This document shows, in pieces, positions 20,217 to 43,810 of a DNA stretch of 64,000 nucleotides. The notes below the pieces were generated by a model that worked only from the letters and a program-made list of their open reading frames with translations, did no database searches and had not been told where the DNA came from. Position 1 is the first letter of the stretch; each line of letters begins with the position of its first letter. This stretch comes from Malus domestica (lineage: Eukaryota; Streptophyta; Magnoliopsida; Rosales; Rosaceae): assembly GCF_042453785.1 (NCBI RefSeq), contig NC_091671.1:30781001-30845000 (forward strand), in the 5' to 3' direction. Made by a program: the position numbers and the translations under genes.

Positions 20217-20574
20217 TGATAAGGATTTTACTACACATGTGAAAGGGCTAAAAAACTCCTATAATACTTGCAAGAATGATAAGGTTATTGTAATATAAAC
20301 GGATCTTGCAATGTCGTTCTCCACATGAATTATTAAATAATTCGAAACAAACCAAATTCTAATTAATTATTGTAGAGTAGAAATTGAGATGATTGATCTT
20401 ATAACTTATTTAAATTAAACACGAATTTAATTAATAAAAGTAAACTAATCTGCAATATTAAAACTAGAAGGAAAAGAAAACAGTTTATGGAGAAATCAAA
20501 TTAAGAAAACACTAGGTTCCACCATCACCTAGCAATCCTATGAACTTTTACCAATTACTTATGATCTACACATG
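20217..20574 (-). repeat. Outer element 3' LTR, first part
   Basis: 358 bp beginning TGATAAGGATTTTACTAC on the plus strand. It ends acatg at 20574, where the inner element is inserted, and resumes at 26835. Confidence 0.9.
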
Positions 20575-22051
20575 TGATGAGTAGATTTTATATTATATAT
20601 TTTACCCTAATCTTACTATATTTTGGAAAAAATTTTATACTTTGAATTGTATTTTCAATATAGGACTTTCGAATTCCTCTGGAGCAAAACAGGACCAAAT
20701 GAACGAATTTTGGAGTAATTCCAGTTGGAGGACGTTCGTGAGTCAATTAGCTTGATCGTAACAAAATTTAGAATTTTTCCACTAAGCGGTTATTTTCTGG
20801 CGATAAAATAAATGAGCGATGCGCGGTGCTGGAAAATGACGTTTCTGGGCTTAAATTGCGTTTTTGGAGCCCAAGATGACCTTGGATGGGTTCGTGGCCT
20901 TCTGGAGAAGTGTTCAGAATATTCCAAACATTAAATCCAGCCATATTGGGCCAGTTTTGGAGCAGCTTATGGGTCCAAAACATGGCTGTTCAGATTTTAG
21001 GCGAATTTTACCATTTAATTTAGGGTTATGTTTCCTATTTTATTTGATTATTATTTTTAGTTTCCTAGTGGGAATAAAGGACCTGTTTTTAGGGTTTGTG
21101 TGGGGGCTTAGCAGATATTTGCTTGGCCATCTACAGTTTTACGTACACTTTTCTTTTATGCAACTTTAGAGACAAAGAGAATTGCTAGGGTTCTTGGAGA
21201 TTTTCTACTCTAAAGTGTTTTCAATCCTTTTCTTAGTAATATTTTCTATGATTGCAATTATGAATATGCATAACTAATTCCTTTTGCTAGGGCGAATCCT
21301 TGAGCCTTAGCATGAATATGTGATTTTTATTTAATTGCTTATGATTGATTGCATGCATACTTTGAATTATTAATCACTGGGATTAAAACTATTTAATTGT
21401 GTTAATGCTTGATCACCATTAGGATCTTTAGAAAAGTAATTTGATGCAAATTTGGTCAGAATGTTCCCTGAAATTGACGCTGGCTTCTTGTGATTAATAA
21501 TTGTAATTTCACTTAGGATGAACACCACATCTTAAGGATTGCATGGTTTTTCAAAAGGTTTTCATAAAGCATAATGAGTCTTTCATGTTCAGATTTGATT
21601 CGAACGTCCGGACGGGTTGCATGTTAGATATATGTTCAATGTTGGAGGTTCCAAGTAGAATATAAATTAGGAAAACCTAACCTTCAAAGTGGCATGTGTA
21701 GATCATAAGTAATTGGTAAAAGTTCATAGGATTGCTAGGTGATGGTGGAACCATAGTATTTTCTTAATTTGATTTCTCCCAAAATTGTTTTCTCTTCCTT
21801 CTAGTTTTCAATATTGCAGATTGTCTTATCTTTAATAGTTAAATTCGTTTTTAATTTAAGTAGGTTATAAAATCAATCATCTCAATTTTTACTTTACAAT
21901 AATTAATTGAAATTTGGTTTGCTTTGAATTATTTAATAATCCATGTGGAGAACGACCTTACGAGATTTGTTTATACTACAACAACCTTGTCATTCTTACA
22001 AGTATAATAGGAGTTTTTAGCCCGTTCACATGTGTAATAAAATCCCTATCA
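20575..22051 (+). repeat. Inner element 5' LTR
   Basis: 1477 bp, TGATGAG..CCTATCA. Pairs with 25345-26829. Confidence 0.9.
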
Positions 22052-22057
22052 AGAAAA

Positions 22058-22075
22058 TGGCGCCGTTGCCGGGGA
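22058..22075 (+). other. Inner element PBS (tRNA-Asp)
   Basis: TGGCGCCGTTGCCGGGGA lies 6 bp after the LTR and is complementary to the 3' end of tRNA-Asp, the primer typical of Athila/Tat lineages. Confidence 0.85.
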
Positions 22076-22194
22076 TTGTTTTAAATAGTTTGTGTCTATC
22101 AACTCTTAATTAATTATTATTGTATATATCTTTTTATTTAATTGCTGATTTTGTTTTTGTAGGTTACAATTTGTTTCTTTTTAGCAGTGCAACA

Positions 22195-23175
22195 ATGAAA
22201 TTTGCAGTTTCCCCTGAATTCAATCTAACACCCGAGGGACCACCTCTTTGGGTTTCATTAGCAAAAACGGGTTATTATGGATTTAAGCCTACGATTTGTG
22301 CTCTTTGTAATTCAAATACTCATGATATTTTGCAATGTCCTAAGAGAGAATATTTTCCAGATTATGTCCAGGAGTATATAAATATGAGAAACGATTCAAA
22401 ATGGAACTGGAACAATCCCCATTCAGAGTTCTACACTCAAAGTTTGAAAGAGCATATTGGGCAGTATTTTGAGTGGCTTAATGTGCCACAAGAACTTTCG
22501 GTGGAGGACAAACTATCTAAATTGTTGGAATCAACTGAATTGTACATAGAAATAATCAATCAAGGATTTCAAATTTAAGCAGTAAATTGTGGGAGAAGCT
22601 ATGATGATCAAGAGGTTGGTGTAGGAACCGAGGAGCCATCTGCCTGTTATTCACACCCAAAGGAGGAAACAGCCCCTGATGACCTTGAAACTTACATAGA
22701 ATCTGCTCCTACAAAAGTCTGTGTGCCACTCATGCACTCTCCCGAGACTCCAAGGCAACCCGCTAAGCAGCAAGAATGCATGAATACTCTGACAAATCTA
22801 ATTACAGGACAGCTGCTTACTAATCAGAAAATTTTAGTGGCGGTAACGGACAGTGCACCTGCATAGCCCTTCAAATTCAAAGAAATGCCAGATGAGTCCT
22901 GCAAACAGGCAAAGATCTATATGGAAAAGAGGAAGCTTATTGACAGCCAAGTTCCTCGTAGAAAATTTTAGCCAGTGCGGAAACTATGGGTGTTAGATAC
23001 ACGATTTAAGTCAGCTCGATGGAGAAATAAACATAGCTGGAAAGGAACCTATTTCTTTCCAAAGATTCATTCAAAAAGAAAGGCGTATAAGAAGAATTCA
23101 ACCATTAAATTTGGAAGCACAGTGCTCTATGACATTATTAAAGAGTGGTTAACTTTGAAAGAACAAGTGAGGTGA
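22195..23175 (+). pseudogene. Element-encoded CCHC zinc-knuckle protein, three in-frame stops
   Basis: One frame runs from the ATG at 22195 to the stop at 23173-23175 (about 326 codons). It is broken by TAA at 22576-22578, TAG at 22864-22866 and TAG at 22969-22971. It begins MKFAVSPEFNLTPEGPPLW and has one canonical zinc knuckle, CALCNSNTHDILQC (CX2CX4HX4C), then a lysine/arginine-rich tail. I do not recognise it as a standard Athila gag, which the outer element does carry. A nucleic-acid-binding or packaging role is inferred from the knuckle and from its position right after the PBS. Since the stops keep the frame, decay was by point mutation. Confidence 0.6.
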
Positions 23176-23429
23176 TCAACAATTCTTTCTGCTACGTCTA
23201 GCTATAGACTTTAACTAAAGCGCTTTTTGGAAGGCAACCCAATTTTTCTAACTCTTTTCTTTTTATTTCGTTTAATTTATTTTCCTGTTTTTATTCCTAA
23301 TTACAAAAATCAAAAAGAAAAAAAATATTGCAATTTTTAATTCTTGTTATTTTTCTTTACTTATCTAATTAGTTTTTTTATTGCAAGTTGCATTCGGAAC
23401 TGATTCGGCCTAATCCCAACTAAGGGGGT

Positions 23430-24232
23430 GCAATCAACATTTATTCCCCCAGCACATTCATCATCAATTCCTCTACATTCATGAGATTAGGCAGTGTGGA
23501 GTGCAGAAACAAAGTTGAGGGATCTAAGTAGCACAGAGGACACGATTCATCAAGGCAGAATACAGTTTCTGTTATCCACACTTTTGGGCTCAAATATACA
23601 TTAGTGGGTACAGGCAAGCACACAGATAGAGATTTATGAGCATGTGGAGAACATTATCATGCATGATGCGCAAATAAGAGTTAGGCATCTATGTTCTATA
23701 CCTTTCCTTTTCAGATAAGCTCCAGACATCTACCGTTCTTTTCTATGTCAAATCAGCATTCTGCAAATCCTGCCGCAGAAGCACACATGCATTAGATAAT
23801 TTTCATCCATTTTTTCCCCAAATCTAAGCATATAAAAAAAATAAAAAAAATTGAAGGGAGATGTGGATAAAAATTACCCATGAATGTGTCGGAATCAGAG
23901 AGGGATGTGATCTGCGATGTCATCTTTGCGGCTGTTGATATTACTGTTTGAGGACGCTCGATTTTTGAGGTTCGAAGGCAGCAAGATGATGAAGGAGGAC
24001 ATCGTAAAAGAGTGGTAGATGCGCTTAGATGGTCCTGGTTCAAAGATGAAGTTTGGGCGTATAGTGCGGCTCTGGGGTATACGTTTGGTTTTTAAGATAG
24101 AAATGGTTGTGGGCTCGAGGATGAGAAAAGAAGAATCTAGAGAAAGAAGCTTTCTGAAGCAGCTAGAGGGAGAAATAAGAAATGGGAAGACGGCGCCAGG
24201 GTAATTCTATATATAGATAAATGAGCATCGAG
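23430..24232 (-). pseudogene. Antisense host-gene-like segment with promoter, 5' leader and exon
   Basis: Inside the inner element but on the opposite strand. A TATA box (CTATATATAG, 24207-24216) is followed about 30 bp later by a C/T-rich leader. Then comes a frame ending KMTSQITSLSDSDTFM and a good 5' splice site (ATGG|GTAATT, exon end 23878). Downstream, on the same strand, is a 3' splice-like site (cttctgcggcag) near 23771. Both flanks (23200-23400 and 24330-25344) are shared with the outer element and this block is not, so it looks inserted into the element. The product is not recognised. Confidence 0.5.
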
Positions 24233-24329
24233 TAAGCTTAAACAAGCTGGCTAAGACGTTTTAGAATGAGCCACATCGTGGCCCACATTTGCTCCGAGTC
24301 TAGCCGTGCAACAACTTCATTTTCAAGCC

Positions 24330-25344
24330 CAGGTAATATCTTTCTTTTCTTTGGTTTTGTTAATCATTTTCACTTTTATAATTATTATATTTTAGTTTAA
24401 GTTTATTTCATTTTTGTCATGTTTCTTTTATTTCCACACCTTGAGGACAAAGTGTAAAATAAGTTTGGGGGTCGGAAAGTACAATTTTAGGCTTTTATTT
24501 TTTTTATGTCAGTTAAGAATTTTCATTCTTTTTAAGTTAATATTCATAGATTATTTTAAACGTTAGAAAAAATGGACGTGGTGAAGATTAATCTTACAGT
24601 ATAGTCTTTTCTATTTATCGTTGCTTAGACACTAATTCATGAATTATACATTGAACTTTGCACATCACATCAACATGGTTTGTGGGAAGCGAGATTGAAA
24701 CACTTGCTTTTAGTCTAAGTTTATTTTTTATTTTTGTTTTGAGTAAAGTCAGTTATTATTGTGAATAAAGTAATAATTGTCTCACCCGAGGTTTTGCCTA
24801 GTAACTGGGCCAGTCCTGCCTAATCAGCAGTGATTCTTACGTCAAATGGTAGAGTTTTGGCATGGGGCAGGGTGGTTAGTTAGTTTCATAGCCTTTTCAG
24901 CTCAGGTTAATAAGTCCTTAAGGGTGTTCTACACCTAGTGCCCTAAAGCCCTAGTGGTTTGGGAGTCATTGACCTAAAGCTCGCTACATGGGTTGGATCG
25001 AAAGCTTAAGTGAACTGACATTGCACGACCACTACTATTACTGAAGAAAAAAATTAAAAAGAAAAAGAAAAAAAGCTATATTCAAAGTTAGTATGTGTGA
25101 AATAAAGAAGGACGAGAGGTCAGAGTTTTAGTCGAGTCTCCCTAACTATGTTGGTTCACTTTACACCAAAGGAAATTCATGAATTCTTTTCTAATTGATT
25201 CTAAATGGCTTAGACTCTGTGGTGGGATTGGTTGGAACTTTTGAAAAGATGTTCTAGTTTTTAAAATTTGCTATGGATTGCAACTTGAAGGTGGAAGTTT
25301 TGTCTTGGTTGAGTTTTAGCTAGTTGTCTAGTTTGGGGGTATTT
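24330..25344 (+). other. Inner element conserved 3' internal region and PPT
   Basis: Non-coding. It aligns, inverted, with 27969-29115 of the outer element (for example ccacaccttgaggacaa and the tcattgacctaaagctc block). It ends in the PPT gtttgggggtattt next to the 3' LTR. Confidence 0.75.
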
Positions 25345-26829
25345 TGATGAGTAGATTTTATATTATATATTTTACCCTAATCTTAGTATATATTGGTTAA
25401 TATTTTGGAAGAATTTTGATACTTTGAATTGTATTTTCAATATAGGACTTCCTCTGGAGCAAAACAGGGACAAATGGATGAATTTTTTAGTAATTCTAGT
25501 TAGAGGATGTTCGCCAGTCAATTAGCTTGATCGTATCAAAATTTGGGATTTTTCCACCAAGCGGTTATTTTCTAGCGATAAAATAAAGGAGCGGTGCGCG
25601 GTGTTGGAAAATGACGTTTCTAGGCTTAAATTATATTTTTGGAGCCCAAGTTGACCTGGGATGGGATCGTAGCCTTCTGGAGAAGTGTTCAAAATATTCC
25701 AAACATTAAATCCAGCCATATTGGGCCAGTTTTGGAGCAGCTTATGGATCCAAAACGTGGCTATTCAGATTTTAGGTGAATTTTACCATTTAATTTAGGC
25801 TTATGTTTCCTATTTTATTTGATTATTATTTTTAGTTTTCTAGTGGGAATAAAGGACCTGTTTTTAAGGTTTGTGTGGGGGGCTAAGCAGATATATTGCT
25901 TGGCCGTCTACAGTTTTACATACACTTTTCCTTTATGCAACTTTGGAGACAGAGAGAATTTGTTAGGGTTCTTGGAGATTTTCTACTTGAAGGTGTTTTC
26001 AATCATTTTCTTAGTAATATTTTCTATGATTTCAATTATGAATATGCGTAACTAATTCCTTTTGCTAGGGCGAAGCCTTGAGCCTTAGCATGAATATGTG
26101 ATTTTTATTTAATTGCTTATGATTGATTGCATGTATACTTTGAATCATTAATCATCAGGATTAAAATTATTTAATTGTCTTAATACTTGATCACCATTAG
26201 GATCTTTAGAAAAGTAATTTGATGCAATTTTGGTCGGAAGGTTCCCTGAAATTGACGCTGGCTTCTTGTGATTAATAATTGTAATTTCACATAGGATGAA
26301 CATTACGTCTTAAGGATTGCATGGTTTTTCAAAAGGTTTTCATAATGCATAATGAGTCTTTCATGTTCAGATTTGATCCGAACGTCCGGACGGGTTGCAA
26401 GTTAGATATACGTTCTATGTTGGAGGTTCCAAATAGAATATAAATTAGGAAAACCTAACCTTCAAAGTGGCATGTGTAGATCAAAAGTAATTGGTAAAAG
26501 TTCATAGGATTGCTAGGTGATGGTGGAACCCTAGTGTTTTCTTAATTTGATTTCTCCAAAAACTGTTTTCCTTTCCTTCTAGTTTTCAATATTGCAGATT
26601 CTCTTATCTTTAATATTTAAATTCGTTTTTAACTTAAGTAGGTTATAAAATCAATCATCTCAATTTCTACTTTACAATAATTAATTGGAATTTGGTTTGC
26701 TTTGAATTATTTAATAATCCATGTGGAGAACGACCTTGCGAGATTCGTTTATACTACAACAACCTTGTGATTCCTGCAAGTATAATAGGAGTTTTTAGCC
26801 CGTTTACATGTGTAATAAAATCCCTATCA
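25345..26829 (+). repeat. Inner element 3' LTR
   Basis: 1485 bp. Pairs with 20575-22051. Confidence 0.9.
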
Positions 26830-26834
26830 ACATG

Positions 26835-27968
26835 CCACTTTGAAGGTTAGATTTTCCTAATTCATATTCTACTTGAAACCTCCAACATAGAACGTATATC
26901 TAACATGCAACCCGTCCGGACATTCGAATCAAATCTAAACATGAAAGACTCATTATGTTTTATGAAAACCCTTTGAAAAATCATGCAATCCTTAAGACGT
27001 GGTGTTCATCTTAAGTGAAATTACAATTATTAATAACAAGAAGCCAGTGTCAATTTCAGGGAACCTTCCGACCAAAATTGCATCAAATTACTTTTCCAAA
27101 GATCCTAATGGTGATCAGGCATTAAGACATTTAGATAGTTTTAATCACGGTAATTAATAATTCAAAGTATACATGCAATCAATCATAAGCAATTAAATAA
27201 AAATCACATATTCATGCTAAGGCTCAAGGCTTTGCCCTAGTAAAAAAAAATTAGTTAAGCATATTCATAATTAAAATCATAAAAAAAAATTATTAAGAAA
27301 ATGATTGAAAGCACCTTCAAGTAGAAAATCCCCAAGAACCCTAGCAATTCTCTCTATTTCCAAAGTTGCATAAAAGAAAGCGTAGCCCAAAAAACAAAGA
27401 ACTGCAGAGCAATATATTTGCTAAGCCATCCACAAACCCTAAAACATAGGTCCCTTATTCCAATTAGGAAACTAAGAAAAATAATAAAATATCTTAGAAA
27501 ATAAAACCCTAATTAAATTAGGGGAATCTAAGAAGTACTTGTCCAGTCACGTTTTAGCCTCAGATCTCTTCCAAATCCGGTCCAAGATAGCTTGTTTTAA
27601 AGATTAGGCCGTTCCGAACACATCTCCAGAAGGCCATGAAACCATCCAAGGTCATCTTGGGCTCCAAAAACCCAATTTAAGCCCAGAAACTTCATTTTCC
27701 AGCACCGCGCATCGCTCATTTATTTTATCGCCAGATAATAACCGCTTGGTGGAAAAATGTCAAATTTCGATACGATCAAGCTTAGTGACTCAAGAACGTC
27801 CTACAACTGGAATTACTCCAAAATTTCTTCATTTGGTCATGTTTTGCTCTAGAGGAAGTCGGAAGTCTTATATTGAAAATACAATTCAAAGTATCAAAAT
27901 TCTTTCAAAATATTAACCAAAATATACTAAGAATAGGGTAAAATATATAATATAAAATCTACTCATCA
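26835..27968 (-). repeat. Outer element 3' LTR, second part
   Basis: 1134 bp beginning right after the acatg duplication. Added to the 358 bp at 20217-20574 it equals the 1492 bp of the intact partner LTR. Confidence 0.9.
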
Positions 27969-29115
27969 AAATACCCCCAAACTTAGCTTTTTGCTTGTCC
28001 TCATGCAAAATAAAACTAGAAAACAAAAATAAAAACTAACAAACTAAAGACTTAACTAAAATTAACTGACAAAAATTTTCACCTTCAAAGTTGCAATCCA
28101 TAGAACACGTTAAAAATCAGAACGTCTTTTCAAAAGTTCCAACCAATCCCACCACAAAGTCTAAAGCCATTTAGAATCAATTAGAAAAGAATTCACAAAC
28201 TTCTTTCGGTGTAAAGTGAACCAACATAGTTAAGGGGACTCGACTAAAACTCTTACCTCTTGTCCTTCTTTATTTCACACATACTAACTTTATATATAAC
28301 TATTTTTCTTTTTCTTTTTCAATTTTTTTTCAATTTTTTTTCTCTTATATAACATATATATATATATATATTGGTAACAGTAGTGGTCGTGCAATGTCGG
28401 TTCACTTAAGCTTTCGATCTAACCCATGTAGTGAGCTTTAGGTCAATGACTCCCAAACCACTAGGGCTTTAGGGCCCTAGGTCTAGAACACCCCTAAGGA
28501 CTTATTAACCCGAGCTGAAATGGCTACGAAACCAACTAACCACCCTGTCCCATGCCAAAACTCTACCGTTTGACTTGAGAATCACTGCTGATTAGGCAGG
28601 ACTGGCCCAGTTACTAGGCAAAGTTTCGGGTGAGACAATTATTACTTTATTCACAATAATAACTGACTTTACTTAAAACAAAAATTAAAAATAAACTTAG
28701 ACTAAAAGCAAGTGTTTCAATCTCACTCCCCATAAACCATATTGGTGTGAAGTGCAAAGGCAAAGTATAATTCATGAATTAGTGTCTAAGCAACGATAAA
28801 TAGAAAAAACTCTACTATGGGATTAATCTTCACGATGTCCATTTGTTCTAACGTTTAAAATAATCTATGGATATCAACTTAAAAAGAATGAAAATTCTTA
28901 ACTGACACAAAAAAAATTAAAAGCCTAAAATTTACTTTCCCACCCCCAAACTTAAATCACACATTGTCCTCAAGGTGTGGAAACAAAAAGAAAAATGAAA
29001 TGAACAATAGAATAAAACACAAAAACCCTAATTGACATGAAAAAGAAACGATAAAACTATAAGAAGAAAATAAAATAAAAGAAAATATAAAACAAAACGA
29101 AAATAAAGGAGAGAA
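27969..29115 (-). other. Outer element 3' internal region and PPT
   Basis: The PPT (AAGTTTGGGGGTATTT on the minus strand) adjoins the LTR. The region is the inverted counterpart of 24330-25344. It contains a (ta)n run near 28355. No gene. Confidence 0.75.
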
Positions 29116-29379
29116 AAACACCTGAGCTTTTATGGGAAAGATGATGGCGTGACAAACTTTGGGCCTTGACAAACTACATACGTGGCAACTGTTGGGTTTG
29201 AAACCCAACTTGCAAAACAAAGGTCCAATATGAACATTGGATTCCTGTGAGATGGTTGAATGGGATGTAGCTGGCATCCTAATTTGAAAATGGTGTTTGC
29301 AAGTTCCCAAGTCTGAAGAAGAAAAGTCGTTATCAGTCCTCAGTCTTTGTCAGTCATTCTACCCAGAGCCAACGACTCT

Positions 29380-30204
29380 TTACCTCGCCATTTGAAAACC
29401 ACCCTCCTCAGAAAGGCACATAGCTCTTCCCATGTTCAAAACTCTCAAACCCAGCCATCAATTCAAACCTCCCTTTCACAGCAGCTCATTCGTTCTCTAT
29501 AAGCGCTGCATCCGTAGCCTTCCATAATCCAGCAACAAACACACCTCCGTGAGTACCTAGCCGTGGTGGAAAATCGGAAAAACTAAAACCCAAAGGTAAA
29601 ATCATCCTCCAATCTTTTGGTTTCATTGTCAGATTTATTTGTTTTAGAGAAATGGAACAAGAACTAACACATGCACGTGGTTTTATCGGTGTGAGGACCC
29701 CTCATGGTTGCAAATCCGAGCCGATCTACTCCATTCGCTTGTCTCTGCTGAAACCCGAAACCCTTCAGCTTCTACCATGGAAATAGGAAGGTAAGATCCA
29801 TGCATCTATTTAACTTTACTCGAGCAGCTCAACACGGTTGTTTTTATGTCTCAGATACTCCATGCTGCATGTGTAAGTATGTTTATTTTGTTTGTGGGCA
29901 CAGGTCCTCGATCTAGAAGCTTAACAATGACAAGGAAAATGAAAACCAGCTACGACATTGCAGATCCTGGGCTTGCAGAGGTAAAACTGTTGTTCTCCAC
30001 CAGTGATGAAACCCCATTTCTGAAAGTGCTTCATCATTACCCCCTGTATGTGTCATAACTCATAAAGATGTGTTGTTTTTATTTTTATTTTTACAGGGCA
30101 CTTGGATTCCTGACATATCCGAGAAAAAGGACATGTTGACGGTGCGGATCCACTGGACAAAAAGCACGGCACCTTGCAAAGGTCTTGATCTGTCGATATG
30201 GAAG
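29380..30204 (+). pseudogene. Antisense host-gene-like segment with several exons
   Basis: On the strand opposite to the outer element, a leader-like stretch is followed by strong GT-AG signals. These are a donor after 29790 (gaag|gtaagat), an exon 29855-29872, an exon 29904-29980 (acceptor gggcacag, donor gag|gtaaaa) and an exon 30097-30204 (acceptor tttttacag, donor gaag|gtatac). The last three exons join into one open frame, including KMKTSYDIADPGLAE then GTWIPDISEKKDMLTVRIHW. I do not recognise the protein. Retained introns mean the segment came from genomic DNA or was carried antisense. The inner element has an unrelated segment at the same internal position. Confidence 0.55.
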
Positions 30205-30893
30205 GTATACACTCATCCTTCCAAACTAAATAAGTGACATTTTTTTTCATTTGTTGAATGCATCAAAATTTTTGCTTCGGTACTGGATTTGCAACAACCA
30301 CCCCCAAACTTGCATATTTGATTGAGCTTATGTGATTGCTTGAAATTCCAGTATAATGTAGATGTGGTTTATGTGAATGTAAACTTGCTGCTGGGTGCAT
30401 GATTCCAGCATAGGATAAACTGTCTCTATTTTCCCTTAGTTTCCATGAGTGCACCCTACAATTAACCAATATAAGCGAATATTAAAAACGGAGCTAAAAT
30501 CAACTGCGTAAATAAAGAAAGCAAAATATTTTTGGATTTTTCACGTTTTAATTTTTTAATTTTTTAATTTTTATAATCTGTATTTTTTTATTAAAACTTA
30601 GGTATGTAAATCCATCCAGAAATTTAAGTAATAATAGAAAAAAATCAAACGAAAAATAAAATAAGGAAAGAGTTTAGAAAAATTGGGTTGCCTCCCAACA
30701 AGCGCTTTATTTTAAGTCTGTAGCTAGACGTTGTAAAAGCGTGGTGGTCAAATCACTGGTTCTTTCAAAGTCAAAGACTCCCTTGCACCAAATTTCCCTA
30801 TGCATGGTTTAAGTTGATGTTTGGTAACCTTAAATGGGAAATCTTTGCCCTCAGCTGTGATTTCTACATTACCATTTTGAAAAACTTTAGTAA

Positions 30894-31610
30894 CTAGAAA
30901 ATGACCTTTCCTTGAGACTCTTGTCTCCCTGGAATTAACTTAAAACTGGAATTTAATAGCCACACCTTTCTACTAGGTTGTATTTTCTTAAAATTTGGGC
31001 TGCCTGGCAAATTGTCATGTTTTTTCTTAATGTTAATCGGCTGGACATTATGTTGCACACTTTGCTGTTGCAATTTAGGACTAATGCAATCACGAATCAA
31101 ATTTGGAGGCTTTATGGACAGATGGTCAGTTGATGATCTGGTTATAAAATCAACACTAGGTAAACCATCTAATGCATCAACACGCATGCATTCTTGCTTA
31201 TCACCTAAATGTATGCTTTCTTCAAACAACCTAAAAACAACTATTTGATCTTCGACCCGAAATGTTAGTGTTCCGGCTTCAACATCAATAAGAGTCCGGG
31301 CTGTTGCTAGGAATGGGCGGCCCAAGATGATGGGTGTTGTCAAATCCTCATCCATGTCTAACACCATAAAATCAGCTGGTAAATATAATTTGTCAACCTT
31401 CACAATAACATCTTCAATGATCCTTCTAGGATAGGTAATTGAACGGTCAGCCAATTGAATAATGTTGGAGGTTGGCTTTAGCTCTCCTTCACCTAAACGT
31501 TTAAAAACAGAATAAGACATTAAGTTTACATTAGCACGTAATTCAATTAAAGTACTACTAAAATCACAATTTCCAATGGTGCAAGAGATAGTAAAACTCC
31601 CTGGATCTTT
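30894..31610 (-). pseudogene. Athila-like aspartic protease, active site lost
   Basis: The frame contains LKPTSNIIQLADRS, RRIIEDVIVKVDKLYLPADF and TPIILGRPFLATARTLIDV, the conserved body of Athila/gypsy retropepsins. Upstream, where the catalytic CDLGASINLM is expected, the sequence reads IELRANVNLM, so the catalytic Asp and Gly are replaced. It is out of frame with gag. Retropepsin normally cuts the polyprotein. This copy should be inactive. Confidence 0.8.
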
Positions 31611-31644
31611 TTTCTTTAGGGGAAACTTATGTAATAAAACTGCG

Positions 31645-33358
31645 CTACAGTTCTTTAAGAATCACTTTTTCAAAATCAACGAGCTTCTTTTTCTTTGAGC
31701 AAACGTCCTTAAAAAACTTGGCATAATATGGAATGTTCTTGATTGCATCAGTTAATGGAAGATTAATTTGAACTTTAGCCAAAGTCTTCATAAAATCTGT
31801 CAATTGTTGATCATTAGCTTTACGCTTCAACCTTTCGAGATAAGGCATAGAAGGCACATAAACACGTTCTGCAATTTTTGTGGTAGCTTCTGCAATATTT
31901 TCGGATTTATCTAGTGGAAGCCCAAAATCTGCATAAATTGCAGATTTAGTTTGGGGCTGTTCTGCTGCCTGAGAATTTCCAGCGCAATTTTCATGTCTAT
32001 TGTCATAACTTTTGCTAGACTGTAAAGTTCGTACAGCATTGCATTCTTCTCGTCCTCTTGGATTAGGTACTGTTTGACTAGGAAATGTACTCGATGCTCT
32101 TTCTGAAACCTGCAACGCAATCTGCTCAATTTGTTTTTCCTTATTTTTCATTGATGCATGCAGATTTTGGATTTCTTGACTGGTAGTATTAGCTAATTTT
32201 TCAATTGCAATTTCCCAAGTAGCCTTAGGTGCCTTAGGTTGCTGTAATTGTTGTTGAAATTGTGGCATTGCAAGCTGATCACTATCCCACTTTAAATTAC
32301 AATGATCTCTCCTACCCGGGTTGTAGAAATTTGAATATGGGTCATATCAGGGACGCTGAAAATTACTGAATGCATTAACCAACCTGCTAAGCTGTAAACT
32401 CAGGAAAAACATCTTTATGTGGACAGGTCATAAAATCATGAGTTGTCATGCTTCAAATGCTGCAGGCAGCTTGTAAGGGCTGCTGTACAACAACCTGTGA
32501 ACCTGGAATTCTTTGTAATAACATGTCAAATTTTACATCAAATCTTTCAAGGTTTTTCTCCATTTTTTCAATTTGTGCCGACACATATGGTGAACCATTA
32601 GACATCTCAAAAACAGACTTAGATTGTGGCTGCTTAACTGCCCATTGCTGTGTATCTGCTACCATTTTTTCAAATAATAAACAAGCCTCTTGTGCAGTTT
32701 TATCCTTGTACGAACCTCCGCATGAAGCGTTGACAAGGGTTTTTATTGTCATATTTAACCATCTGAAAAATATATGTATCTGATCAGTACTGTTAATACC
32801 GGAATGTGGACATTTTCTAATCAACTATTTGAACCGCTCGCACGCCTCATGAAACTCTTCATTTGGTTTTTGGGCAAAAGATAAAATCTGAGTTCTCATG
32901 TCAAGAGTCTTTGAAGCTGGATAATACTTGTTTAAAAAAATTTCACTGAGTTGGGCCCAAGTTGTAATGCTTCCAGATGGGAGTGTGAGAAGCCATCTTC
33001 GTGCTTGATCTATCAGAGTGTATGGAAACAAACAAAGCTTAATAAATTTAGCTGAAAATCCTCTCACCAAAATATTCTTGCATCCCATTAAAAATTCTGC
33101 AATATGCATGTTTGGATCGTCAGTTGATAACCCATGAAATGTAGGTAGAATATTCAACATATGTTGCTTTATTTCGAATGTTGAATGTTCCTCCACTACT
33201 GGATAAGTAATGCAACTTGGCATGTTAGTGGTATGAGCTGTTAAAGAATCACCCAAAGGCTGACCCGCCTCTGGAATAACGAATGCCATTTTTTCTTTAT
33301 TATGAAGATCCCCATAAATTAAAGACTGCAGAAAAGTCCCTGCAGAGAAGGAACCCAC
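31645..33358 (-). pseudogene. Athila-like Gag, broken
   Basis: Starts MGSFSAGTFLQSLIYGD and holds the Retrotrans_gag core (NILPTFHGLSTDDPNMHIAE, LFPYTLIDQARRWLLTLPSG, SITTWAQLSEIFLNKYYPAS, EEFHEACERFK). A TAG at 32825-32827 interrupts it, and the same frame resumes LIRKCPHSGI down to 32453. The coiled-coil C-terminal part (31645-32268, IQNLHASMKNKEKQIEQ) is in another frame, so there is also an indel between 32453 and 32268. It would have formed the particle. It cannot be translated whole. Confidence 0.85.
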
Positions 33359-33551
33359 TGCAAATTTTTCTCCCTGCGTCTCCTTAAAGTTTGCTCAAGT
33401 AAGTTTGCTTGAGTTCTGGATCAAAAGGAAACAATTTCTGCACTGTACTGCTCTAATCTGAGAAAAATAAAATAAAAACGAAATTTTTTTTTATATGCAT
33501 AAACAACAATAACCAACTGAAAATCTAATTAGAAGGAATTATTTTAAATAA

Positions 33552-33569
33552 TCCTTGGCAACGGCGCCA
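33552..33569 (-). other. Outer element PBS (tRNA-Asp)
   Basis: Minus strand TGGCGCCGTTGCCAAGGA, which is the inner PBS with two differences. Confidence 0.8.
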
Positions 33570-33575
33570 TTTTCT

Positions 33576-35067
33576 TGATAGGGATTTTACTACACATGTG
33601 AACGGGCTAAAAAACTCCTATAATACTTGCAAGAATGACAAGGTTATTGTAGTTTAAACGGATCTTACAAGATCGTTCTCCACATGGATTATTAAATAAT
33701 TCGAAACAAACCAAATTCTAATTAATTATTGTAGAGTAGAAATTGAGAGGATTGATCTTATAACCTATTTAAATTAAACACGAATTTAATTAATAAAAGT
33801 AAAATAATCTGCAATATTAAAATTAGAGGGAAAAGAAAACAGTTTTTGGGGAAATCAAATTACGAAAATACTAGGGTTCCACCATCATCTAGCAATCCTA
33901 TAAACTTCTACCAATTATTTATGATCTACATATGCCACTTTGAAGGTTAGATTTTCTTAATTCATATTCTACTTGGAACCTCCAACATAGAACGTATATC
34001 TAACATGCAACCCGTCCGGACGTTCAGATCAAATCTAAACATGAAAGACTCATTATGTTTTATGATAACCCTTTGAAAAACCATGCAATCCTTAAGACAT
34101 GGTGTTCATCTTAAGTGAAATTACAATTATTAATCACAAAAAGCCAGCATCAATTGCAGGGAACCTTCCGACCAAAATTGCATCAAATTACTTTTCTAAA
34201 GATCCTAATAGTGATCAGGCATTAAGACATTTAGATAGTTTTAATCACGTTAATTAATAATTCAAAGTATGCATGCAATCAATCATAAACAATTAAATAA
34301 AAATCACATATTCATGCTAAGGCTCAGGGATTCGCACTAGCAAAAGAAATTAGTTACGCATATTCATAATTAAAATCATAGAAAATATTATTAAGAAAAG
34401 GATTGAAAGCACCTTCAAGTAGAAAATCTCTAAGAATCCTAGCAATTCTCTCTGTTTCCAAAAGTTGCATAAAAGAAAGCGTAGCCCATAAAACAAAGAA
34501 CGGCAGAGCAATATATTTGCTAAGCCATCCACAAACCCTAAAACATAGGTCTCTTATTCCAATTAGGAAACTAAGAAAAATAATAAAATATCTTAGAAAA
34601 TAAAACCCTAATTAAACTAGGGGAATCTACCAAGTACTTGTCCAGCCACGTTTTAGCCTCAGATCTCCTTCAAATCTGGCCCAAGATAGCTTGTTTTAAC
34701 GATTAGGCCGTTCCAAACATATCTCCAGAATGCCACGAAACCATCCGAGGTCAGATTGGGCTCCAAAAACGCAATTTAAGCCCAGAAACGTCATTTTTCA
34801 GCACTGCGCATCGCTCATTTATTTTATCGCCAGACAATAACCGCTTGGTGGAAAATTCCCAAATTTTGATATGATCAAGCTTAGTGACTCACGAACGTCC
34901 TACAACTAGAATTACTCCAAAATTCGTCCATTGGTTCCTGTTTTGCTCTAGATGAAGTCGAAAGTCCTATATTGAAAATACAATTCAAAGTATCAAAATT
35001 CTTTCAAAATATTAGCCAAAATATACTAAGAATATGGCAAAATATATAATATAAAATCTACTCATCA
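33576..35067 (-). repeat. Outer element 5' LTR
   Basis: 1492 bp intact LTR, TGATAGGG..CTCATCA on the plus strand. Confidence 0.9.
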
Positions 35068-40871: not shown

Positions 40872-41274
40872 TCATGTTTTATGTGTCTGTAGTGTCTATA
40901 TATTTTCCTACTTGTCATACGTATATGTCGTGGACTAGCTATCTTTTTTGTGTTTCCCTCCCTTTTTTTTTTTTTTTAAGATGGACAACTAGTGGGAAAT
41001 CACGGTTATCTACCCCTTCCGGAGACATCTTTTCTATGTTTCTACTGTCTTACGTCTGTGTTCTTCACTTGATGAGGAGAACAAGCAATGTAATAAATTA
41101 AATAAAGTGGTGTCAAATTTTCAATAATGAAAAGTCGTTATGAAACAACCCTAACAGCATGCTTACAGCGAAAGGAAGTTGATTTTCACACACCTTTTAA
41201 ATCTTTCACATTTCTTTATTTTTCGATCGTCGAACTAAAGAAATCAAATAAAACAACAAATATAATTAAATAAA

Positions 41275-42884: not shown

Positions 42885-43810
42885 GGTGATATAATTAAAA
42901 AAATGCTCATTTTTGTGTTAGTTCAGATGTCCATTGTTGTGATTCAATGTTCCCAAATAACTCAAACACTTCTTTGACATTTTTAAACATCAACGCGCCT
43001 CCAAATGATGCATTAATAACTTCTGCTAGTTTGATTGAGAGTTTTAACGAAAAATCTATGATATTGTTCACTTTAACAAAAAATCATATTTTTACACTAA
43101 AAAGTCAAACCTGGTACTATTCACTTACCCTTTATTTTGTCCTTATCATTAAAACTCAAAGTTTTCAGGCCATTTTCATTAGTTTTCCTAGTTTGATTTA
43201 GACCGTCAAAGAACAGTTTTGTATGTGTATCTCCATCAATGCCATTATGGGGACACTTTGTGAATAACTCCTTGTACCACTCTCATGCCTCATGGAACTC
43301 TTCATGTGGTTTTTGAGAAAAGACAAAATTTCCCTCCTCATGGAAAGAGTCTTGGAGGCCGGATAGAACTCCCTTAGGAATTTTTCATTCAACAGCTCCC
43401 AGGAAGTAATGCTGCTAGATAGAAGTGTGAAGAGCCATGCCTTCGCCTTTTCCTTTAGAGTGTAAGGAAAAAATAAGTTTGATAAATTCGGCTAAAAATC
43501 TCTTAACCAAGATGTTCTTGCATCCCATAAAAAATTTAGTGATATGCTTGTTAGGATCATCATGAGATAACACATGCAAAGTTGGCAAAATCCAACATGT
43601 GATGCCTTATCTCAAACGAATCACCTTCCTCATTTTCTTGATAAACAATGCAACTCAGCAAGTCATTAGCACGGGCTGTTATAGACTCTGGCAAGGGTCG
43701 GCCAGCTGCTGGTATCACTAATGTTATTGTATCCTTATTGTCGAAAACCCCAGTAAACAGATTCTCTAGAAACGTTCCCTGTAGTGAGGGTTACCACATC
43801 AAATTACGTT
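42885..43810 (-). pseudogene. Athila-like gag relic, interrupted by a MITE
   Basis: The minus strand shows ASFGGALMFKNVKEVFELFG, then, beyond the MITE at 43037-43189, LNEKFLREFYPASKTLSMRR and the frame-shifted EFHEA region, with LFTG near the start. It is related to the gag at 31645-33358. Frame shifts and the MITE make it non-functional. Confidence 0.65.
43037..43189. mobile_element. Mutator-like MITE, copy 3 (153 bp)
   Basis: Same family as 37623 and 41275. The 9-bp target duplication agtttgatt is exact at 43028-43036 and 43190-43198. It sits inside the gag relic. Confidence 0.85.

Follow-up and report, generated by a model that had tools for sequence, protein, structure and literature searches.

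A probably resident, mosaic antisense unit, rather than two host genes, in a family of LTR elements of apple

The window considered in this study, a stretch of 64,000 nucleotides of apple DNA, contains one LTR element inserted into another, and each of them holds, at the same internal site and antisense to its own transcription, a different sequence that resembles the 5' part of a gene. Are these segments pieces of different host genes, as the original prediction had it, or do they belong to the elements themselves? I will argue for the latter: with a probability of roughly 0.7, the sequence that separates the coding part from the 3' LTR in this family contains a resident, mosaic antisense unit and not two separate host genes.

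The nested elements and their shared blocks

The inner element (+ strand) lies within the 3' LTR of the outer element (- strand). The features needed at this point are listed below by position in the window.

20575-26829 (+): inner LTR element, LTRs at 20575-22051 and 25345-26829, target site duplication (TSD) ACATG at 20570-20574 and 26830-26834
20217-35067 (-): outer LTR element, 5' LTR at 33576-35067, TSD GTGTC/GTTTC
20217-20574 and 26830/26835-27968 (-): the two parts of the outer 3' LTR, on either side of the inner element
22091-23142 (+): inner sense ORF region, interrupted by stops, with 16 protein relatives (15 from Malus, 1 from Pyrus)
30781-33530 (-): outer gag region and protease-like stretch, Retrotrans_gag at 32828-33394 (Pfam, E 9.5e-13)
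23143-23293 (+): first shared block, following the coding region, inner copy
30629-30780 (-): first shared block, following the coding region, outer copy
24341-25344 (+): shared 3' internal block, inner copy
27969-29074 (-): shared 3' internal block, outer copy

The nesting of the two elements is real. The LTR pairs are 93.7% (inner) and 93.4% (outer) identical, and the flanks of the outer element, once joined, can be aligned across the junction with the paralogous P450 flank near 41110, where the element is absent. The two elements have in common the start of the primer binding site (PBS), TGGCGCCGTTGCC, which I take to be tRNA-Asp-like, and the polypurine tract GTTTGGGGGTATTT that precedes the 3' LTR. 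Besides the PBS, their internal regions match in the first shared block (23143-23293 against 30780-30629, 80% identity) and in the second (24341-25344 against 29074-28031, 85%). TSDs, LTR pairs and block alignments all agree with the prediction that the elements are related and share LTRs, PBS and internal blocks.

The 5' coding parts differ, the inner consisting of an ORF with no Pfam match above the cut-off and the outer of gag. The protease-like stretch that follows gag is presumably that, judging by its motif, and has no Pfam match. A Pfam scan of four outer and two inner ORF pieces gave no match to reverse transcriptase (RT), RNase H or integrase, as expected of the non-autonomous lineage that had been proposed. 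Nor did those pieces match the Athila ORF-1 domain, a weak negative, since this is a minority feature (16% of Athila elements in PMC6317226). By PBS and layout, the family would be a Ty3/gypsy-like one of Maleae, of the Athila type.

Some side observations concern these coding parts. The inner sense ORF (22091-23142, +) contains, by eye, a CxxC...H....C-like motif, and its relatives form an unnamed group of Malus and Pyrus proteins. The region 43247-43805 of the window is 70% identical to the outer gag region and is probably part of another related element. Within the outer gag region, antisense to it, 32798-32902 (+) matches Rfam snoR71 (RF00097) at 47.9 bits, the gathering score being 40, though this family model perhaps picks up repeats; nothing else exceeded the Rfam threshold.

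Between the shared blocks, the segments 23283-24416 and 28999-30637 found no match elsewhere within the window (E<=0.01, low complexity masked). Without masking, the inner and outer internal regions have in common, outside the blocks, only short A/T-rich stretches. The sequence between the blocks is therefore unrelated as far as this pair of elements goes, a claim that does not extend to the family, as will be seen.

The putative antisense units and their splice signals

The two segments contain the following units.

23430-24340 (-): inner antisense unit; TATA-like stretch at about 24203-24232, C/T-rich leader with an exon that extends to 23878, then an intron at 23877-23770 and a further exon from 23769
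29075-30218 (+): outer antisense unit, cut at 30218 relative to other copies; leader at about 29380-29595, exons at about 29648-29790, (29855-29872), 29904-29980 and 30097-30204

On the strand opposite to element transcription, both segments alternate between exon-like pieces of 44-49% GC and T-rich, intron-like pieces of 26-38% GC. This composition upholds the description of an exon/intron-like architecture, antisense and at the same internal site in both elements. The strength of splice signals was compared with that in 500 dinucleotide shuffles, with a score threshold of 6. In the outer segment, the antisense strand exceeds most shuffles (P 0.024) and the other strand does not (P 0.44). In the inner segment, the antisense strand shows no excess (P 0.41); the donor proposed at the end of the first exon scores below 6, and the best acceptor is the one that starts the exon at 23769. 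Among the predicted outer exons, the mini-exon 29855-29872 would leave an intron of 31 nt, too short by plant standards, and is doubtful for that reason.

The same sites were examined in other copies of the units, the P values being optimistic throughout because the copies share ancestry. The four outer donors originally proposed, one of which (29873) is that of the doubtful 31-nt intron, are conserved in 26 of 26 cells, as compared to other GTs at a proportion of 0.588 (P 0.0016); adding a fifth donor brings the count to 29/31 (P 0.0096). Outer acceptors are conserved in 17/21 cells over all seven copies, against 0.546 (P 0.12), or in 22/27 for an alternative set (P 0.073). In four more distinct copies, donors reach P 0.023 and acceptors P 0.018. 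Inner splice sites are not preferentially conserved among copies (P 0.28 and 0.64).

Whatever is conserved in the outer exons, it does not appear to be a protein. Substitutions are spread evenly over codon positions, 0.208/0.199/0.212 in the 5' exon and 0.186/0.231/0.223 in exon A, and the divergence of the exons (0.212-0.234) is slightly lower than that of most introns (0.248-0.314) and higher than that of one (0.157). In most copies the reading frame of the exons is broken by shifts or stops, exon B being free of stops in two of the seven copies that cover it. The longest antisense ORF beginning with ATG measures 134 aa in the cargo regions and 146 aa among the 13 outer-type stretches listed. 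The outer exons, to judge from these alignments, are without codon-level constraint, and I reject a protein-coding antisense gene for them on the grounds of equal substitution at the three positions and broken frames. A single frame that spans the junction of 5' exon and exon A without a stop in two of seven copies could be the relic of a protein.

Is there an antisense gene at all? The segments could be non-coding spacer, in which C/T-rich and T-rich tracts happen to mimic leaders and introns, and the lack of coding constraint, together with inner splice signals that neither rise above shuffles nor are preferentially conserved, speaks for this reading. The complete conservation of the outer donors and an excess of outer splice signals confined to the antisense strand speak against it, and I regard it as doubtful. 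The conservation of the donors suggests instead a non-coding, perhaps spliced, antisense unit.

Copies of the units elsewhere in the genome

A captured host gene segment might have a parent. Both segments were used as queries against the window's own genome (651 Mb, 19 contigs); individual copies are cited by L numbers. With the inner segment, 40 of 45 candidates were scored, which yielded 53 matches at 39 places. Of the 38 places other than the window, 20 match the gene-like part of the query (positions from 349 on), and all 20 were fetched; in every one, LTR, ORF or shared-block sequence of the family adjoins the match. L028, with short matches only, is likewise an element, and the remaining 17 places, outside the fetched set, match only at query positions 1-214. 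With the outer segment, 40 of 111 candidates were scored, and 44 matches fell at 40 places. Setting the window itself aside leaves 39, of which eleven extend into the exons; each of these is a copy of an element (L026, L029-L033, L035, L036, L038-L040), though for L031 and L040 the fetched sequence shows the element on just one side. The other 28 match in the leader alone; the two of these that were fetched (L034 and L037) are both elements. In sum, every one of the 31 other places found with gene-like parts belongs to an element, with 40 of the 111 outer candidates scored.

Host genes are within reach of such a search: a control query, a host P450 exon of 906 bp, found nine places including itself, the eight others at 75-96% identity. 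At the protein level, the 54-aa peptide of the outer exons recovered itself in the genome (E 1.2e-19 and 1.7e-4) and nothing else at E<=0.001. There were eight weaker matches (E 0.065-6.2), and the two of them that were examined lie in L036 and L026. In the protein database the same peptide found nothing relevant (candidates of about 30-95 aa only) and the inner antisense ORF no homologue at E<=1. This database includes apple proteins, since the search with the inner sense ORF reached those of Malus and Pyrus. Three antisense peptides and three further ORFs had no relevant match in Pfam, and PDB and viral contigs offered nothing relevant to the identity of a host gene. Within the terms searched, the literature yielded no title on antisense capture of host genes by LTR elements of apple or pear.

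The copies differ in what they carry, as had been foreseen, in a manner that ties the two segments together. Pieces of both are present in five of the 20 fetched copies of the inner type (L012, L016, L023, L024 and L026), and the outer leader resembles by eye that of L024. Across copies, a common exon-intron core is joined to different leaders and different following exons, and L029 and L033 represent a longer type of the unit. L022 has LTRs only 73-76% identical to those of L023, L024 and L025 but a cargo core 94% identical, and conversely the LTRs of L023 and L025 match those of the inner element at 90-91% identity but their cargo core does so at 77-79%. The blocks that adjoin the cargo show no such reversal (3' block 86-87% and 90-92%). 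Since the relationships of cargo and LTR disagree, the region is a mosaic that has been exchanged between subfamilies, and LTR pairs 97-98% identical in L010, L023 and L024 indicate that copies bearing the unit moved fairly recently. The antisense unit is element sequence, present in many copies and mosaic.

Some copies contain further sequences. L020:3038-4260 is a nested insert, G/C-rich inside, with matching ends GGGTAAATTACA and TGTAATTTACCC and a 9-bp direct repeat TAAAATATA; from its ends, read by eye, it is MULE-like and possibly a Pack-MULE. Two further inserts, L016:4929-6680 and L018:5129-7827, lie within cargo and 3' block and bear short direct repeats at their ends. Near the junction of cargo and 3' block, L010:5440-5642 and L022:4194-4400 hold on the antisense strand GGATTCGAAC and GGAGTCGAACTC, which look by eye like a reversed T-arm of tRNA.

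These results leave room for an ancient capture, in which the unit began as the 5' portion of a host gene, or of several, taken up in reverse; the parents would since have been lost or have strongly diverged, and the family would have reshuffled the unit. The layout of promoter, leader, exon and intron with matching composition, the conserved donors, the frame open across a splice junction in some copies, and the differences between groups in leaders and following exons are all compatible with such a history. Against it, no place examined lies outside elements and no protein matches; I hold it possible, if unlikely. The model first proposed, in which unlike pieces of host genes were captured recently and independently at a cassette site, accords with the antisense orientation and the varied content but is very improbable, and largely refuted for the places the search reported, because no parental locus turned up by a method that detects host genes at 75% identity and because both segments recur across subfamilies with pieces in common.

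Among the places examined, no parental gene with the same introns was found, and the cargo is ordinary element sequence, two of the outcomes that the original prediction itself had named as refuting it; host-gene parentage is not supported. The observation behind it was largely right and is partly confirmed, and its interpretation is partly supported.

A probable resident unit and its possible relatives

The resident unit as I picture it combines a promoter-like stretch with a C/T-rich leader and a series of exon-like pieces bordered by GT-AG, and is read away from the 3' LTR; the promoter-like sequence falls within 24203-24340 (-) in the inner copy and 29075-29595 (+) in the outer. Since antisense sites would not be used in splicing the sense genomic RNA, the introns would be retained. 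Copies may swap pieces through template switching between co-packaged RNAs. The inner and outer copies would be different mosaics of the same unit. Antisense transcripts, if made, might act on the element as non-coding RNA or might do nothing. More speculative, and in my estimate unlikely as a whole, is a non-autonomous family whose antisense unit is spliced and non-coding, whose promoter, leader and exon modules are swapped between subfamilies during reverse transcription, and whose donors are kept by selection; a unit of this kind could supply each element with a different antisense promoter.

The family is represented in this one genome by many copies that differ in age, through which the antisense region can be traced as a recombining mosaic, and antisense splicing in the family is directly testable with existing apple RNA-seq. 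The case also illustrates that gene-like structure within an element is weak evidence for capture of a host gene.

Several known systems invite comparison. Pack-MULEs, like the apple elements, have gene fragments within a transposable element, but MULE-like sequence with a 9-bp TSD was seen here only as the later insert nested in L020, and I reject a Pack-MULE origin of the shared unit. Transduction of genes by LTR elements (Bs1, and captured genes of rice and sorghum described in PMC3726574) also places gene-like matter inside an LTR element; transduced genes are, by that account, usually in sense orientation, whereas the apple unit is antisense and no parental gene was found. In their 5-bp TSD and tRNA-Asp-like PBS the apple elements resemble the Athila/OTA superclade (PMC6317226), but the pieces scanned gave no RT by which to assign a lineage. 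In Retand, the region between POL and 3' LTR contains an antisense potential coding region just before the LTR, in non-autonomous members as well (PMC11963269), but the apple antisense peptides scanned had no Pfam match, TRP28, the Retand antisense ORF, included.

Closest are the additional antisense ORFs between pol and the 3' LTR (aORF-3R or eORF-3'R) of maize Grande (gene23), rice RIRE2, Silene Retand and PvRetro13. Such extra ORFs are highly heterogeneous, with several sources proposed (PMC6317226). The review PMC7264820 reports a promoter of its own for the Grande antisense ORF, states that similar host genes outside transposable elements are lacking for antisense extra ORFs, and leaves open both the source of these genes and whether the antisense RNA gets spliced. 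The apple unit may work, at most, like the aORF-3R units, membership among them being unproven. It shares with them its place between coding region and 3' LTR, its orientation antisense to gag/pol and its presence in many copies of the family; it departs from them in a longest antisense ATG ORF of 146 aa among the stretches listed, as against a long ORF of at least 250 codons (so defined in PMC6317226), in its several exon-like pieces, and in being strongly mosaic between subfamilies.
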